Shown in pieces: positions 8,865-26,418 of a stretch of DNA of 64,000 bases. Position numbers and translations under genes: made by a program. The first letter of the stretch is position 1. Each line of letters opens with the position of its first letter. The DNA is from Acidobacteriota bacterium (GTDB lineage: Bacteria; Acidobacteriota; Terriglobia; Acidiferrales; UBA7541). The notes under the pieces are model-generated. The model was given only the letters and a program-made list of their open reading frames with translations, did no database searches and had not been told where the DNA came from. The DNA lies in NCBI GenBank assembly GCA_003224055.1, contig QHYE01000059.1, positions 1 through 64,000 of the forward strand, given 5' to 3'.

Positions 8865-10121
8865 ATGGCAACGCGCATGAGGAACGAAGTCGTTTCGGCT
8901 GCCCTTGAGGCATGCCCCGCGGAATCGCGTGACTGCTTGCAAGCAGCGATGGGGGGGGCGGAGCTAAGCTTCGAACAAGGGCTCCTGCTGGCCACTGCGG
9001 AAGGCGCAGCTTTGGAAGCCTTGCTGGCCGTCGCGGATCAATTGCGCCGAGAGGCCGTCGGCGATGCGATCACCTACGTCGTCAATCGCAACATTAATTT
9101 CACGAATGTATGTTTCGTGGGCTGCAGTTTTTGCGGGTTTGGCCGCGGCCCCAGCGCTGCCGATGCCTATTCACTTTCGTTCGAAGAAGTGGTGCGGCGG
9201 GCGCGCGAAGCCTGGGATCGCGGCGCCACGGAAGTCTGCATCCAAGGCGGATTGCCGCGAGACCTTGACGGCTTTTTCTATCGCGACCTCTTGCGGGCCG
9301 TCAAGCGCGCGATTCCTGAGATGCACGTGCACGCGTTCTCTCCCATGGAGATAAACTACGGCGTGTTGAAGACCGGGATGCCGCTTCGCGAATATCTGCA
9401 AATGATGAAAGACGAGGGCCTGGGAAGCATCCCCGGAACCGCCGCCGAAATTCTGGACGATCGCGTGAGGCAAGAACTAAGTCCCAACAAACTGCCCGCG
9501 GGTCGCTGGGTCGAGATCATCACCGCCGCGCATGAGCTCGGCATTCCCACTACTTCCACGATGATGTACGGCCACGTCGAAGAGCCCGCCGATTGGGTGC
9601 GTCATATTCTTCTTCTGCGAGCGATCCAGAAGCGCACCGGCGGCTTCACGGAATTTGTGCCGCTCGGCTTCATCCATGAAAATACTCGTCTGTACCGTCA
9701 CGGCGGAGCGCGGCCCGGCGCCAAGCGAGAAGAACATTTGCGGGTCCACGCGCTCGCTCGAGTACTGCTCCACGGCGCGATCAAGAATCTGCAAGTCTCC
9801 TGGGTTAAGTTGGGATTCGAAACGTCGCTCGCGTGCTTGCAAGCAGGCGCCAACGATTTCAGCGGAACGTTGATGGAAGAAAGCATTTCGAAAGCCGCCG
9901 GGGCGACGTTCGGCGAGTTCGTCTCGCCGGAAGAATTTCGCGCAGAGATTCGCTCGATCGGCCGCGTCCCGGCGGAACGCACAACTACCTATAAAATCAG
10001 CCGAATGTTCGATGTGAGCGAAGAAGTCAAAACGGCGAATTTCGCGCAGAGATTCGCTCGATCGGCCGCGTCCCGGCGGAACGCACAACTACCTATAAAA
10101 TCAGCCGAATGTTCGATGTGA
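8865..10121 (+). CDS. cofH: FO synthase subunit 2 (F420 biosynthesis), C-terminus altered by tandem duplication
   Basis: A radical SAM enzyme that joins the tyrosine-derived side chain to 5-amino-6-ribitylaminouracil on the way to the deazaflavin FO. The cluster motif is CFVGCSFC (CxxxCxxC), followed by the family segments GATEVCIQGGLPRDLDG, HAFSPMEI, GLGSIPGTAAEIL and LGFIHENT. About 418 residues from ATG 8865; starts at 8772 and 8877 are also possible and none has a well-placed Shine-Dalgarno sequence. The last 27 residues (from NFAQRF) are not native: a 104-bp tandem duplication at 9933-10140 shifts the frame. Without it the protein would end with DARLPTLGAQHHAAYTEGDY at 10203, next to cofC. 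All catalytic parts precede the shift. Confidence 0.92.
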   Translation: MATRMRNEVVSAALEACPAESRDCLQAAMGGAELSFEQGLLLATAEGAALEALLAVADQLRREAVGDAITYVVNRNINFTNVCFVGCSFCGFGRGPSAADAYSLSFEEVVRRAREAWDRGATEVCIQGGLPRDLDGFFYRDLLRAVKRAIPEMHVHAFSPMEINYGVLKTGMPLREYLQMMKDEGLGSIPGTAAEILDDRVRQELSPNKLPAGRWVEIITAAHELGIPTTSTMMYGHVEEPADWVRHILLLRAIQKRTGGFTEFVPLGFIHENTRLYRHGGARPGAKREEHLRVHALARVLLHGAIKNLQVSWVKLGFETSLACLQAGANDFSGTLMEESISKAAGATFGEFVSPEEFRAEIRSIGRVPAERTTTYKISRMFDVSEEVKTANFAQRFARSAASRRNAQLPIKSAECSM

Positions 10122-10140
10122 GCGAAGAAGTCAAAACGGC
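9933..10140. repeat. Perfect 104-bp tandem duplication at the cofH 3' end
   Basis: Two identical head-to-tail copies, 9933-10036 and 10037-10140, each beginning GAATTTCGCGCAGAG and ending GTCAAAACGGC. Because 104 is not a multiple of three, the second copy is read out of frame and cofH stops early at 10121. The absence of any mismatch means either a very recent event or an assembly artefact. Confidence 0.97.
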
Positions 10141-10213
10141 GGACGCGCGGCTACCCACGCTGGGCGCGCAACATCACGCCGCCTACACCGAAGGCGATTA
10201 CTGAGCAATTCCG

Positions 10214-10906
10214 ATGCGCGCACTCCTCCTTCCCATCAAGGATTTGACCAACGCCAAGAAACGGCTCATCGGCGTGTTGACGCCCGGGGAACGCTTCGGC
10301 TTGACCCAGGCGATGTTGGCGGACACGATGCGCGCCGTGCGAGGCGTGCGCCGGGCAGACAAAATCTTCGTCGTGACCAATTACCTGCCGGCACTCCGCG
10401 TGGCCATGGAAAACAGCTGGGAAACTCTGCCTGAAGAGCGCCAGATCTCTGAAAGCGATTCCGTGGATACCGCTTCCAGGATTTGCGAAGCAGGGGGAGT
10501 ACGCGCTGTGCTTCGCGTTCCGCTGGATCTTCCGCTGATCCAACCCGATGACATCGACGATCTTCTTGCCCTGGAATTCGAATCGCCTGCTCTGGTCATC
10601 GTGCCCTCAAGGGATGGCACGGGAACAAACGCCATCCTGCGTACGCCGCCGACGCTCTTTCCTTCGCATTTTGGAAATGGCAGCTTTGCGAAGCATCTCG
10701 CCGAAGCAGGCAAAGCCGGCGCGCGCATGATGGTGCGCCGCAACGCCCGCCTGGAGATGGACGTAGACGACGAGTCCGATCTGCGCGCCTTGCTGGAGCT
10801 CAATTTGGGCGCGACGGAGACGGCGCGTTGGCTCGACCAGAGCGGTGTCGCCGCCAGACTTCGTTCGAACGCGGAAACAGTCAACAAAATGGCTGCAAGA
10901 ACCTGA
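10214..10906 (+). CDS. cofC: 2-phospho-L-lactate (or phosphoenolpyruvate) guanylyltransferase, F420 biosynthesis
   Basis: 230 residues, a NTP-transferase fold protein of the CofC/FbiD family. The N-terminal MRALLLPIKDLTNAKKRL holds the KxxxxAKxRL nucleotide-binding motif. The central VLRVPLDLPLIQPDDIDDLL is the conserved D(L/C)PL segment, and SRDGTGTNAILRTPP is the GTNAL-type substrate loop. It activates the phospho-acid with GTP before transfer to FO. It follows cofH by 10 bp from the native cofH stop position (10203), which supports a joint F420 operon. Confidence 0.92.
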   Translation: MRALLLPIKDLTNAKKRLIGVLTPGERFGLTQAMLADTMRAVRGVRRADKIFVVTNYLPALRVAMENSWETLPEERQISESDSVDTASRICEAGGVRAVLRVPLDLPLIQPDDIDDLLALEFESPALVIVPSRDGTGTNAILRTPPTLFPSHFGNGSFAKHLAEAGKAGARMMVRRNARLEMDVDDESDLRALLELNLGATETARWLDQSGVAARLRSNAETVNKMAART

Positions 10907-11598: not shown

Positions 11599-12292
11599 CG
11601 CCAGCCAGGAAAAACCTGTGGCGGCAAAACCGCGGCTCACACGCGAGCAAATCGCGCAGCGGGCCGCGCGGGAATTGACGGACGGGGCCTACGTCAATCT
11701 CGGCTGGGGAATCCCCAATCTCATCGCGGAGTATTTGCCGAAGGGCATCACTGTCCATTTTCACAGCGAAAATGGAATTCTCGGCATGGGCCCGCGCGCC
11801 AAACCAGGCCAGGAAGATTTCGATCAGGTAGACGCGATGAAAGTCCCCGTGACCCTGATTCCCGGCGCATCTTTCTTTCATCAGGCCGACGCGCATCTCA
11901 TGACCCGCGGCGGTCATCTCGACGTCGCCGTGCTCGGCGGTTTTCAAGTTTCGGAGAAGGGCGACCTGGCCAATTGGAAAATTCCCGGCGCAAAAGGCTC
12001 CGGCGGCATCGGCGGAGCGATGGACATCGCCGCCGGCGCCAAGACCCTGATCGTCTGTATGGAACACACCACGAAAGACGGCGCGCCCAAAATCGTGAAG
12101 CAGTGCACCTATCCGCTTACCGGGCTCGCGTGCGTGGACGTTATCGTGACCGATCTCGCCGTCATTGACGTGAAGCCCGAGGGCTTGGTCCTCCGGGAAG
12201 TCGCACCCGGATGGACCGCGGAGGAAGTTCAAAAAGCTACCGGCGCGCCGCTAATCGCCAAGAGCCGCGTGGCGGAAATAACCTTTGTTTGA
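11588..12292 (+). CDS. 3-oxoacid CoA-transferase, subunit B
   Basis: 234 residues, the beta subunit partner of the preceding gene. The catalytic Glu that carries the CoA thioester is in SENGILGMGP (about residue 60). GWGIPNLIAEYLP and DVAVLGGFQVSEKGDLANWKIPG are typical ScoB/AtoA segments. Its start overlaps subunit A. A 1:1 heteromeric cytoplasmic enzyme for ketone-body, acetoacetate or 3-oxoadipate metabolism is expected. The neighbouring F420 genes may simply share a transcript. Confidence 0.92.
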   Translation: MPGDASQEKPVAAKPRLTREQIAQRAARELTDGAYVNLGWGIPNLIAEYLPKGITVHFHSENGILGMGPRAKPGQEDFDQVDAMKVPVTLIPGASFFHQADAHLMTRGGHLDVAVLGGFQVSEKGDLANWKIPGAKGSGGIGGAMDIAAGAKTLIVCMEHTTKDGAPKIVKQCTYPLTGLACVDVIVTDLAVIDVKPEGLVLREVAPGWTAEEVQKATGAPLIAKSRVAEITFV

Positions 12293-12311
12293 TCTTGCAA
12301 GGAGGAACGAG

Positions 12312-12710
12312 ATGAGCCAGGCCATACCGGAAACACACAAAGATCTGCTGGAGAAGCCCGCCTTCGGAAATCTGGGGACGCTAATGAAGGATGGCAGCCC
12401 GCAAGTCACGCCCGTCTGGGTGGACTACGACGGGAAATTCGTGCGCGTTAATTCCGCAAAGGGTCGCGTGAAAGACAAGAACATGCGCCGCGATCCGCGT
12501 GTTTCCGTCTCGTTGCAGGATCCCGCGAACCCCTATCGTTACCTGGAAATCCGCGGAAAAGTGGTGGAAGTAACCGAGAACGGCGCGGACGATCACATTA
12601 ACAAGCTCTCCAAAAAATATCTCGGAAATCCCGTGTATCCCTTCCGGAAGCCGGGCGAAGTCCGCGTAATATACAAGATCGAGCCGGAAAAAGTCAGCTC
12701 CATGGGATAG
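12312..12710 (+). CDS. PPOX-class (possibly F420-dependent) oxidoreductase
   Basis: 132 residues, a split beta-barrel of the pyridoxamine-5'-phosphate-oxidase-like superfamily. The N-terminal FGNLGTLMKDGSPQVTPVWVDYDG and central INSAKGRVKDKNMRRDPRVSVS-like region (VNSAKGRVKDKNM) match the Rv1155-type subgroup that uses F420 or flavin. The location behind cofH and cofC favours F420, but this is inference. A strong GGAGG lies 6 nt before ATG 12312. It ends the plus-strand run and is convergent with a minus-strand gene only 12 bp away. Confidence 0.82.
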   Translation: MSQAIPETHKDLLEKPAFGNLGTLMKDGSPQVTPVWVDYDGKFVRVNSAKGRVKDKNMRRDPRVSVSLQDPANPYRYLEIRGKVVEVTENGADDHINKLSKKYLGNPVYPFRKPGEVRVIYKIEPEKVSSMG

Positions 12711-14449: not shown

Positions 14450-16048
14450 CTATTTGCCGTACTTTTCGTAGAACTTGTTGGTGAACAGCTCGTCCGGATC
14501 GTAAATGCGCTTGGTCGCAAAAAATTCATCCACGCGCCGGTACGCTTTGCGAAGCTGTTCCTTCGAATAGAAAAGCTGGTAGGGAAGATAGTAAGTGCCG
14601 TCGAGCCCGAGCGCGAGATCAATCAGGTCGGTCGTCGTCTTCTGCAAAATCCGGCCCTCGCGCTCGTTGAATTTCTGATTGAAGTACAGCACGTAGGCAA
14701 ACATGTCCTGCTTCGCGTAATTCAGCGTGGTGATGTCGTCTTTGCGCACGATTCGAATCGTCACGTTGATGAGATTCGCGCCATTGCCCTTCACGACGCT
14801 TCGCAAGCCGTCCACGAACTGCGGCATCTTGTCGTGCGGAACGAAATATTCCTGCAGGATGTCGGTGTCCCGCAGCCGGTTGTTCAAATAATCCATCGAA
14901 TCGTACATTTCCTGGTTGCGCGAGACCAGGCAGCCCTCTTCCCGGCTCATCGCTTCGTTGCGCGAAAGGCAGTTGTGCAGCCGCGGCTCTCCATATTTTT
15001 CCATCGTCCAGCGGAAGCGCCGCCCGGTGTCGCCGGTTTTCGAGAAATTGATGATGAACCGATCAAGCCACACGTAGCGCGGCAGCTTCAGCGGAACCAA
15101 CGGAACATCTGTGTGCGTTTTTTCATACGTGTGAATCGCGGTTTCCGCCAGGAACGTGGAAGGTGACATCGAAAGCCGCCCGTACGCCAGCCCGATATTC
15201 GGGTTTCCTTCGACGTTTTTCTCGTAATAGCTCGCAAAATCTTTGTAATCCATGTAGTGCGTCTTCCAGAGGTACATCTCGTTGTCCACCACGTCCAGGT
15301 CCACGTCGAGAATAATCCCCATCAATCCATAGCCGCCGAGCGCATGATGAAAAAGCTCGGCATTTTCCGTTGGGCTGCATTGCTTGATGTCGCCGTTGCT
15401 TAGCAGGATGCGGAACGAACGCACTGTCGGCGCAACTTGTCCCGGATTGTGCGCGATGCCGTGCGCGTTGACGCTCAGCGTCCCGCCTACCGTGAAAATG
15501 TTGATGGACTGCATTGCTTTTACCGAGAGTCCCTGCGGATCGAGAAAAAGCTGCAACTGTTTCCACGTGGCGCCAGTTTGCACATTGAGAATTTTGTGCT
15601 CTTTGTCCAGGCGGACCTGATGGAATCCGCGCATATCCAGCACGAGTCCGTCCTTCGCGAAAGTGTGCCCGCCCATGCTGTGCCGCGAACCGGCTGCGGT
15701 CACCTTCAATTTGTGATCCCGCGCAAATTGCAAGGCGTTCTGAATATCCTGCACGGTCGCGACTTTGACGATGCCGTAGACCGCGGTCTTGTTCAGGTAG
15801 CTGGCGTCATTGATGTAGCCGCCCACCTGTTCGAACGGCACCTGAGCCGTGGGAGGAGCTTGCAGGACCAGCGTGGTCGGCTTGGTTTGATCGGCATTCG
15901 GCGGATAAACGAAGTCGGATTCTTTATCTTTCGCGGGAGCAACGGAGTAATCGAAGAATTTTTTCGCGGCCACGACCAGCAGCGAAGCCACCAGCAGCAG
16001 CGCGATCAGCCAGCGTCTTCTGCGGGAAGGAAGAGTTTTGTTTTGCAT
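14450..16048 (-). CDS. Membrane-anchored FAD-linked oxidase (PCMH type, aldonolactone/alditol oxidase-like)
   Basis: 532 residues. An N-terminal signal anchor (residues 12-30, WLIALLLVASLLVVAA) is preceded by a Arg/Lys cluster. From about residue 85 an FAD-binding type 2 domain follows: VYGIVKVATVQDIQNALQFA, then AAGSRHSMGGHTFAKDG (pyrophosphate/flavin loop with the His that is often 8-alpha-linked), and later INIFTVGGTLSVNAHG. The C-terminal half resembles the substrate cap of L-gulonolactone or D-arabinonolactone oxidases. The domain should face the periplasm. It is divergent from two unknown membrane proteins that may work with it. Confidence 0.85.
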   Translation of the reverse strand: MQNKTLPSRRRRWLIALLLVASLLVVAAKKFFDYSVAPAKDKESDFVYPPNADQTKPTTLVLQAPPTAQVPFEQVGGYINDASYLNKTAVYGIVKVATVQDIQNALQFARDHKLKVTAAGSRHSMGGHTFAKDGLVLDMRGFHQVRLDKEHKILNVQTGATWKQLQLFLDPQGLSVKAMQSINIFTVGGTLSVNAHGIAHNPGQVAPTVRSFRILLSNGDIKQCSPTENAELFHHALGGYGLMGIILDVDLDVVDNEMYLWKTHYMDYKDFASYYEKNVEGNPNIGLAYGRLSMSPSTFLAETAIHTYEKTHTDVPLVPLKLPRYVWLDRFIINFSKTGDTGRRFRWTMEKYGEPRLHNCLSRNEAMSREEGCLVSRNQEMYDSMDYLNNRLRDTDILQEYFVPHDKMPQFVDGLRSVVKGNGANLINVTIRIVRKDDITTLNYAKQDMFAYVLYFNQKFNEREGRILQKTTTDLIDLALGLDGTYYLPYQLFYSKEQLRKAYRRVDEFFATKRIYDPDELFTNKFYEKYGK

Positions 16049-17754: not shown

Positions 17755-20193
17755 ATGACCAACTTCTGGCAAGACATCCGGTACGCATTTCGCATGTTTT
17801 CGAATAGCCGCGGATTCGCCGCCATTGCTGTTCTTACCCTGGCCCTTGGAATTGGCGCGAATACCGCGCTCTTTTCCGTCGTAAACGGCGTGCTGCTGAA
17901 CCCGCTGCCGTTTTCGAATCCCGACGAACTCTACGCCGTTTATTCGAAAACTGCGGCGTTTGGGCAAAGCTCAATTTCCTATCCGAATTTCCTCGACTGG
18001 CAGAAGCAAAATCATTCTTTCTCGAACCTAAGCGCTTTCCGATCCGATGACTACAATTTGACCGGCGCGGGCGAGCCGGAGCGGCTGCACGCGCACATGA
18101 TCTCCGCGGAATGTTTCCCCACCCTAGGCCTCAATCCCTTGCTGGGCCGCAATTTCCGCCCCGAAGAAGATCGGGCGGGCGCGGGCCCCGTGGCCGTTAT
18201 TGGCGATGGTTTGTGGAAGCGAAAGTTTGCCTCGTCGCCGGAGGTTATCGGAAAAAACATCACGCTGAACGGCAAGTCCTACACGATCGTCGGCGTTGCC
18301 CAGGCACGCATTCCGGGGATCAGTCCTTCGGACGTCTATGTTCCCATCGGCCAGTGGGCCGATCCGACGTTTCTCGACCGCCGCATCAGCATGGGCATGA
18401 ACTCGATCGGTCGCCTCAAGCCCGGCGTCACATTCGCTCAGGCCCGCGCGGACATGGACTCCGTCGCGCAAAACCTTGCTGCGGCTTATCCCGATGCGGA
18501 CAAAGGCACAGGTATCACGTTGGTTCCGCTCAAGACGGATGTTGTCGGCGAAGTCCGCGGAATTCTGCTCGTGCTGCTGGGCGCGGTCGGCTTTGTTCTT
18601 CTGATCGCTTGCGCTAATGTCGCGAATCTCCTGCTCGCGCGTTCGACCGGACGCACCCGAGAATTCGCCATCCGCTCGGCGCTTGGCGCCAGCCCCGCGC
18701 GCGTCATCCGCCAGTTGCTCACCGAAAGCGTAATCCTTGGCGTCGCCGGCGGCGCGATCGGCCTGCTTCTCGCGAAGCTGGCGATGCACGCCATACTCAC
18801 CGGATTGGCGGACGCGCTTCCGCGCACCGACGAAATCGCGCTCGATTCCCACGTCCTGCTTTTCACGGCCGGCATTTCCATCCTCACGGGTATCGTTTTC
18901 GGACTCGCGCCAGCCATTAAGATGTTGCGGCCACGATTGAGCGAGACGCTGAAAGAGGGCGGACGCGGATCGAGCGGCGCTCGGCATCGGACGCAAAGCG
19001 TTTTTGTCGTCGTCGAAATGGCCATGGCGCTCGTTCTTTTGGTCGGCGCGGGACTGATGGTTCGAAGCCTCGCCGCGCTCTGGGGAATTAATCCCGGCTT
19101 CGATCCGCACAACGCGCTCTCGTTCGCAACTTCTCTGACTTCCGATCCCTCCGTGACGCCGGGCCAGTTGCGTTCGAAATACCGCGAAAGTCTACGGCAG
19201 TTCGAAAGCGTCCCCGGAGTGGAATCCGTCGCCATGATCGGCGGGTCGCTCCCCATGACCGGGGATTCTGAAGTTCCGTTCTGGCTCGAAGGCCAGGCGC
19301 CGCCGGCCAACCAAAGCGATATGACCTTCGCGCTTTTCTATCTCGTGACGCCGCCATACCAGCAGGCGATGCGCATTCCGATTCAGCGCGGGCGTTTCCT
19401 CAACGATCGCGACGACGAGCATTCGCCGGCCGTCGCGGTGATTGACGCTACGTTTGCGCGCAAATATTTTCCGAATGTCGATCCCGTCGGCAAGCGCATC
19501 AACGTCGGGCTGCTGGATATCCAGCCGGAAATTATCGGCGTAGTCGGTCACGTCGAGCATTGGGGATTGGGCGCCAAGGGCCACGATACCTTGCAGTCGC
19601 AACTTTATTTGTCGGTCTGGCAAGTGCCAGACCGGTTCTGGCCGCTCCTTTCCAGCGGCTCCGGCTACGTTGCGCGCACGGCGGCTTCTCCGCTCGGCGT
19701 CGTGAGCGCAATTCGCGAAGCCGCGGTGAGAGGCGATCCCAGCTCCGTTGTGTTTGGCGCCCGGCCGCTGCAGGAAATTGTTGGCAATTCCATCGCGACA
19801 CAGCGGCTGGCGATGATTCTGCTCAGCGTTTTTTCCGCGCTGGCGCTGGTGCTTTCCGCGATCGGAATTTACGGCGTGATTTCCTATCTCACCGGGCAGC
19901 GCACGCATGAAATCGGCATTCGCGTGGCGCTGGGCGCGTCGAGCCGCGATGTGCTGCGCATGGTGCTCGGCGAAGGGATGAAAATCACGCTCATCGGCGT
20001 GGCCATCGGCCTGGCCGCGGCGCTCGGATTGACGCGGCTCATTGCCAAACTAATTTACGGCGTCGGCGCATCCGATCCCCTCACGTTTGTGGGCGTCGCC
20101 GTACTTCTGACCGGCGTCGCGCTGCTCGCCTGCTACATTCCGGCGCGGCGCGCGATGCGGGTGGACCCGATGATCGCTTTGCGTTACGAGTGA
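17755..20193 (+). CDS. ADOP-type duplicated MacB/FtsX permease
   Basis: 812 residues with two MacB-periplasmic-core plus FtsX-permease units in tandem, the acidobacterial duplicated orphan permease layout. The N-terminus QDIRYAFRMFSNSRGFAAIAVLTLALGIGANTALF is the family signature. The first FtsX core is near LLVLLGAVGFVLLIACANVANLLLAR (about 265-300), and the second TM cluster starts near residue 680 with the conserved GIYGVISYLTGQRTHEIGIRVALGA. No ABC ATPase or PadR regulator is adjacent, as is common for 'orphan' copies. The substrate is unknown; an envelope export or lipoprotein/peptide release role is the usual guess. Confidence 0.9.
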   Translation: MTNFWQDIRYAFRMFSNSRGFAAIAVLTLALGIGANTALFSVVNGVLLNPLPFSNPDELYAVYSKTAAFGQSSISYPNFLDWQKQNHSFSNLSAFRSDDYNLTGAGEPERLHAHMISAECFPTLGLNPLLGRNFRPEEDRAGAGPVAVIGDGLWKRKFASSPEVIGKNITLNGKSYTIVGVAQARIPGISPSDVYVPIGQWADPTFLDRRISMGMNSIGRLKPGVTFAQARADMDSVAQNLAAAYPDADKGTGITLVPLKTDVVGEVRGILLVLLGAVGFVLLIACANVANLLLARSTGRTREFAIRSALGASPARVIRQLLTESVILGVAGGAIGLLLAKLAMHAILTGLADALPRTDEIALDSHVLLFTAGISILTGIVFGLAPAIKMLRPRLSETLKEGGRGSSGARHRTQSVFVVVEMAMALVLLVGAGLMVRSLAALWGINPGFDPHNALSFATSLTSDPSVTPGQLRSKYRESLRQFESVPGVESVAMIGGSLPMTGDSEVPFWLEGQAPPANQSDMTFALFYLVTPPYQQAMRIPIQRGRFLNDRDDEHSPAVAVIDATFARKYFPNVDPVGKRINVGLLDIQPEIIGVVGHVEHWGLGAKGHDTLQSQLYLSVWQVPDRFWPLLSSGSGYVARTAASPLGVVSAIREAAVRGDPSSVVFGARPLQEIVGNSIATQRLAMILLSVFSALALVLSAIGIYGVISYLTGQRTHEIGIRVALGASSRDVLRMVLGEGMKITLIGVAIGLAAALGLTRLIAKLIYGVGASDPLTFVGVAVLLTGVALLACYIPARRAMRVDPMIALRYE

Positions 20194-26288: not shown

Positions 26289-26418
26289 TTCGTATGAGTG
26301 GCAAATACACGACTTACAGGCAAACAGTTTGTATGAGTGGCAAATAGGAGACTTAAAGTAGCTATGTTTTCAGTGATTTGAGAGCAGCTCGTAAGAGTGA
26401 CAAACAAAGGACTTACGG
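26289..26418. repeat. Three imperfect 31-bp direct repeats upstream of fumC
   Basis: Copies at 26289-26319, 26328-26358 and 26388-26418 align without gaps. The shared core on the plus strand is GTA(T/A)GAGTG(G/A)CAAA followed 5-6 nt later by GACTTA. Start-to-start spacing is 39 and 60 bp. A looser fourth copy (TTCGTA, TGTCAAAT, ACTTA) lies at about 26551-26582. The layout suggests multiple sites for one DNA-binding protein, perhaps controlling fumC, but no regulator is identified. Confidence 0.75.

Follow-up and report, generated by a model that had tools for sequence, protein, structure and literature searches.

The second of two identical 104-bp copies at the 3' end of cofH probably arose by a local error in the assembly of a draft genome, since other conserved enzymes in the same draft contain comparable isolated duplications, and the cofH duplication is most likely not a real biological feature. 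The verdict of a probable error is judged from the way the assembly itself behaves and is not proof. A frameshifting perfect duplication, together with a seemingly incomplete pathway for F420 biosynthesis, could pass for gene decay or phase variation, and such signals need to be read with caution. Both are better explained by assembly, because other genes of the same draft also contain improbable duplications and a contig breaks off at the missing gene cluster.

Genomes and searches

The window (the whole stretch of 64,000 nucleotides that was analysed) belongs to a draft genome of 136 contigs and 4.53 Mb, about 1.7 Mb (38%) of which was read for duplications. The genus search covered 36 genomes, the window's own included, with no same-species genomes among them. 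The features of the cofH region are as follows.

8865 to 10121, + strand: cofH as assembled; 418 amino acids and a stop; final 27 residues unlike those of congeners; TIGR03551 497 bits; start placed from congeners
9933 to 10036, + strand: copy 1 of the 104-bp unit; native cofH frame; 104/104 bp identity to copy 2
10037 to 10140, + strand: copy 2 of the 104-bp unit; source of the frameshift; single copy in congeners with a readable cofH 3' end
10141 to 10204, + strand: native cofH 3' end (DARLPTLGAQHHAAYTEGDY and TGA); out of frame as assembled; fits the congener C-terminal pattern
10214 to 10906, + strand: cofC; intact; TIGR03552 132.9 bits against a cut-off of 105; selection as between congeners
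12285 to 12710, + strand: F420-dependent PPOX-class oxidoreductase; TIGR03618 118.9 bits against a cut-off of 79.05; context only

The duplication and the reading frame of cofH

The original prediction of two identical, adjacent copies at 9933-10036 and 10037-10140 was borne out, the copies agreeing at 104/104 bp and meeting at AAAACGGCGAATTTCGCG, where neither an N nor any other mark appears. The run of identity at lag 104 is 105 bp long, which leaves 1 bp of microhomology at the junction. The repeat is the sole exact tandem repeat of at least 20 bp in the window (lags 20-599), and its length means that chance is not an option as the origin of the identity. The length of 104 bp is not divisible by three, so the frame of cofH is lost in copy 2; with two copies the gene runs to a stop at 10119-10121 after 27 unrelated residues (NFAQRFARSAASRRNAQLPIKSAECSM), and both translation and comparison with congeners agree with what had been claimed for this tail. 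With one copy the gene ends in ...DARLPTLGAQHHAAYTEGDY (...YTEGDY), a 20-residue native tail, and cofC starts at 10214. The claim that a single copy restores the native end close to cofC stands, while its details are to be corrected: the stop occupies 10202-10204 rather than ending at 10203, and the gap to cofC is 9 nt and not 10.

The protein encoded at 8865-10121 is CofH as judged by curated profile. TIGR03551 (F420_cofH) scores 497.1 bits against a cut-off of 374.1, spanning residues 71-408 of the 449-residue frame, and PF04055 and PF19288 also score above their cut-offs, the radical SAM and C-terminal regions both being covered. The ATG at 8865 is the likely start, because an in-frame TAG lies just 5' of the matching ATG in seven of the closest congeners; counted from it, CofH has 418 amino acids with two copies and 411 with one. 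Invariant alignment columns end at Y376 of 418, and the class-conserved residues are thus all upstream of the frameshift, in keeping with the earlier statement that the catalytic part is intact (497 bits against 374). Against congeners the cofH core shows dN of 0.03-0.07 and dS of at least 0.85, and selection on cofC is much like that among the congeners themselves; by these sequence comparisons, purifying selection acts normally on the cofH core and on cofC, with no sign of its relaxation.

AlphaFold models of the assembled CofH and of one congener are mostly confident in the core and fall below a pLDDT of 50 in the C-terminal tail (residues 392-418 and 387-412, respectively), and both tails are predicted to be disordered. 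If the duplication were real, one disordered tail would be exchanged for another with the barrel intact.

Single-copy cofH in the congeners

A close CofH is encoded in about two thirds of the 36 genus genomes. Wherever the cofH 3' end of a congener could be read, the unit occurs once, with no second copy found; nearly all of these ends carry a Y-x-E-G-A-Y-like motif (...EGAY-like), and in most a start codon follows 7-9 nt past the cofH stop, like cofC in the window. Since the window's single-copy reading fits this pattern, one copy is taken as the native state of cofH. Relatives sharing the 27-residue tail, proposed earlier as the sign of a native tail, were looked for in the congeners with a readable 3' end and the tail was absent from all of them; their C-termini rule it out as native. 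Across the genus the final residues of CofH (Y-x-E-G-A-Y-like) are conserved after a fast-changing linker, despite the predicted disorder.

The cofH core differs from that of the nearest congeners by about 15-17%, whereas the two copies in the window are identical, and therefore the duplication, if real, is recent. A real tandem duplication of very recent date, carried by the sampled strain or by a fraction of the population and easily lost by recombination between the copies, has an appreciable though minor chance of being correct. So young an event would fit the identical copies and the undecayed native tail behind a premature stop, and it would be tolerable with an intact core and tails that are both predicted to be disordered. 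However, the congeners are without it, other improbable in-gene duplications occur in the same assembly, and its junction has 1 bp of microhomology against at least 11 bp in the confirmed cases from Salmonella (PMC3411829). The short direct repeat expected at the endpoints of a slippage event is likewise reduced here to 1 bp, which weakens slippage in particular rather than other routes to a duplication. DNA structure of the 104-bp unit as a driver of slippage was ruled out, the unit folding no better than its shuffles.

The same comparisons bear on a phase-variable tail, in which the copy number would toggle between one and two and so switch the C-terminus of CofH. In principle, a pair of perfect adjacent repeats can gain and lose copies; however, the congeners, which are other species of the genus, have neither a repeat tract nor a second copy or alternative tail, the unit folds no better than shuffles and neither tail is predicted to fold. 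This part of the original prediction found no support, and phase variation is barely credible.

Other in-gene duplications in the same genome

Besides cofH, two well-conserved enzyme genes in the roughly 1.7 Mb that was read carry tandem duplications that were not seen in congeners.

Contig C87, about 15,347 to 15,539: threonine 3-dehydrogenase duplication; 96 bp, in frame, one differing base; 32 residues repeated exactly
Contig C98, 11502 to 12520: methionine aminopeptidase gene; repeat of about 291 bp at about 11,812 to 12,395 and a missing stretch; frame broken

Solved relatives have a single copy of the threonine 3-dehydrogenase segment, and so do the congeners, whose alignments to the query fall into two parts with overlapping genomic positions. 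Methionine aminopeptidase is essential in the bacteria studied, and it is therefore highly improbable that the broken version is real; the gene is whole in nearly all congeners, and no further copy was found in the window's genome at an E-value of 1e-30. The copies of its repeat differ at about 3% of sites and resemble the haplotypes of two strains placed one after the other. On contig C82 (stretch L345:8350-8877), a long open frame contains a near-tandem repeat of 267 bp, 261 bp of it exact, which may represent a repeat of the protein or one more duplication made in assembly. Within the window, a 31-nt repeat occurs three times at positions 26289-26418; its copies are 77-100% alike and are spaced by 39 and 60 nt.

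The duplications in cofH and threonine dehydrogenase may instead both be real, in a lineage that makes in-gene tandem duplications of about 100 bp unusually often and almost without microhomology, so that CofH tails vary in the population; this has only a slight chance of being right.

The ends of the contigs show exact, unmerged dovetail overlaps of 111-196 bp, as well as longer ones with mismatches, and N-runs in the genome reveal scaffolding. At the flanks of four N-gaps no clear case of unmerged duplicates was seen. An attempt to deduce the word length of the assembler from contig-end overlaps and interior repeats was abandoned, the lengths varying too much. The genome probably comes from a strain-mixed metagenome, and the cofH join would itself have been made by the assembler. 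Two pieces truly overlapping by about 104 bp may have been placed end to end and not merged, whereby the overlap would be written twice and appear as the second cofH copy. The cofH of the organism would then have one copy, the normal product of 411 amino acids and the usual 9-nt gap to cofC.

An error of assembly is favoured by the native-type tail and the single copy in congeners, the two further in-gene duplications, the unmerged contig-end overlaps and the 1-bp junction microhomology. Against it are the identity of the cofH copies, unlike the threonine dehydrogenase and methionine aminopeptidase cases, the unmarked junction, the lack of a clear N-gap duplicate and the reading of only 38% of the genome; the tail modelled as disordered, which could tolerate a real duplication, is also counted on this side. 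Among the three origins offered originally, assembly duplication is thus the best supported, through the two other in-gene duplications; a fresh event has a minor chance, with slippage a poor fit at 1 bp, and the phase-variable tail finds no support.

The apparently incomplete F420 pathway

In the window, cofH is followed by cofC, two CoA-transferase subunits and the F420-dependent PPOX oxidoreductase. Searches of the window's genome found no cofG, cofE or F420-type cofD, while both cofG and cofE are present in all congeners that encode a close CofH, except one genome that is 73% complete. In a close relative the gene order is YdjC, glycosyltransferase and npdG, and then cofD-cofG-cofE. The first three genes lie in the window's genome at the end of contig C93 (19,265 bp), the break falling inside npdG.

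Contig C93, 18693 to 19265: npdG at the end of the contig, which stops at base 19,265

As C93 ends inside npdG, next to the site of the cluster in relatives, the missing cofD-cofG-cofE probably reflects a gap in assembly or binning. The absence of these genes could also suggest a lost and decaying pathway, in which cofH drifts and tolerates a frameshift. However, C93 stops where relatives run on into cofD-cofG-cofE, cofH and cofC are under purifying selection as in congeners and an F420-dependent oxidoreductase lies downstream of them; decay was rejected on the contig break, and its chance is practically negligible.

Comparison with known assembly errors and duplications

According to Chen et al. 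2020, the errors of assemblers include sequence written twice where scaffolds are joined, identical stretches strung together artificially and repeats given a wrong copy number (PMC7111523). The cofH case resembles these errors in metagenome-assembled genomes, in which overlapping flanks are doubled, identical sequence is concatenated or the local repeat number is wrong, and genes are left incomplete or incorrect. It differs from their duplicate-overlap cases, which have Ns at the join and errors tested by reads, in that the cofH join is without Ns and was judged from the assembly alone (PMC7111523). Spontaneous tandem duplications in Salmonella are similar in their head-to-tail copies and intact parental copy; the confirmed ones had at least 11 bp of junction microhomology, unlike the 1 bp at cofH, and joins with short microhomology were treated in that study as possible library chimeras (PMC3411829). 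The protein itself is like CofH of F420 biosynthesis (TIGR03551; reviewed in PMC8498797), with a radical SAM core that is complete in length and exceeds the curated cut-off and with cofC adjoining, and only the assembled C-terminal tail differs from CofH of the congeners.
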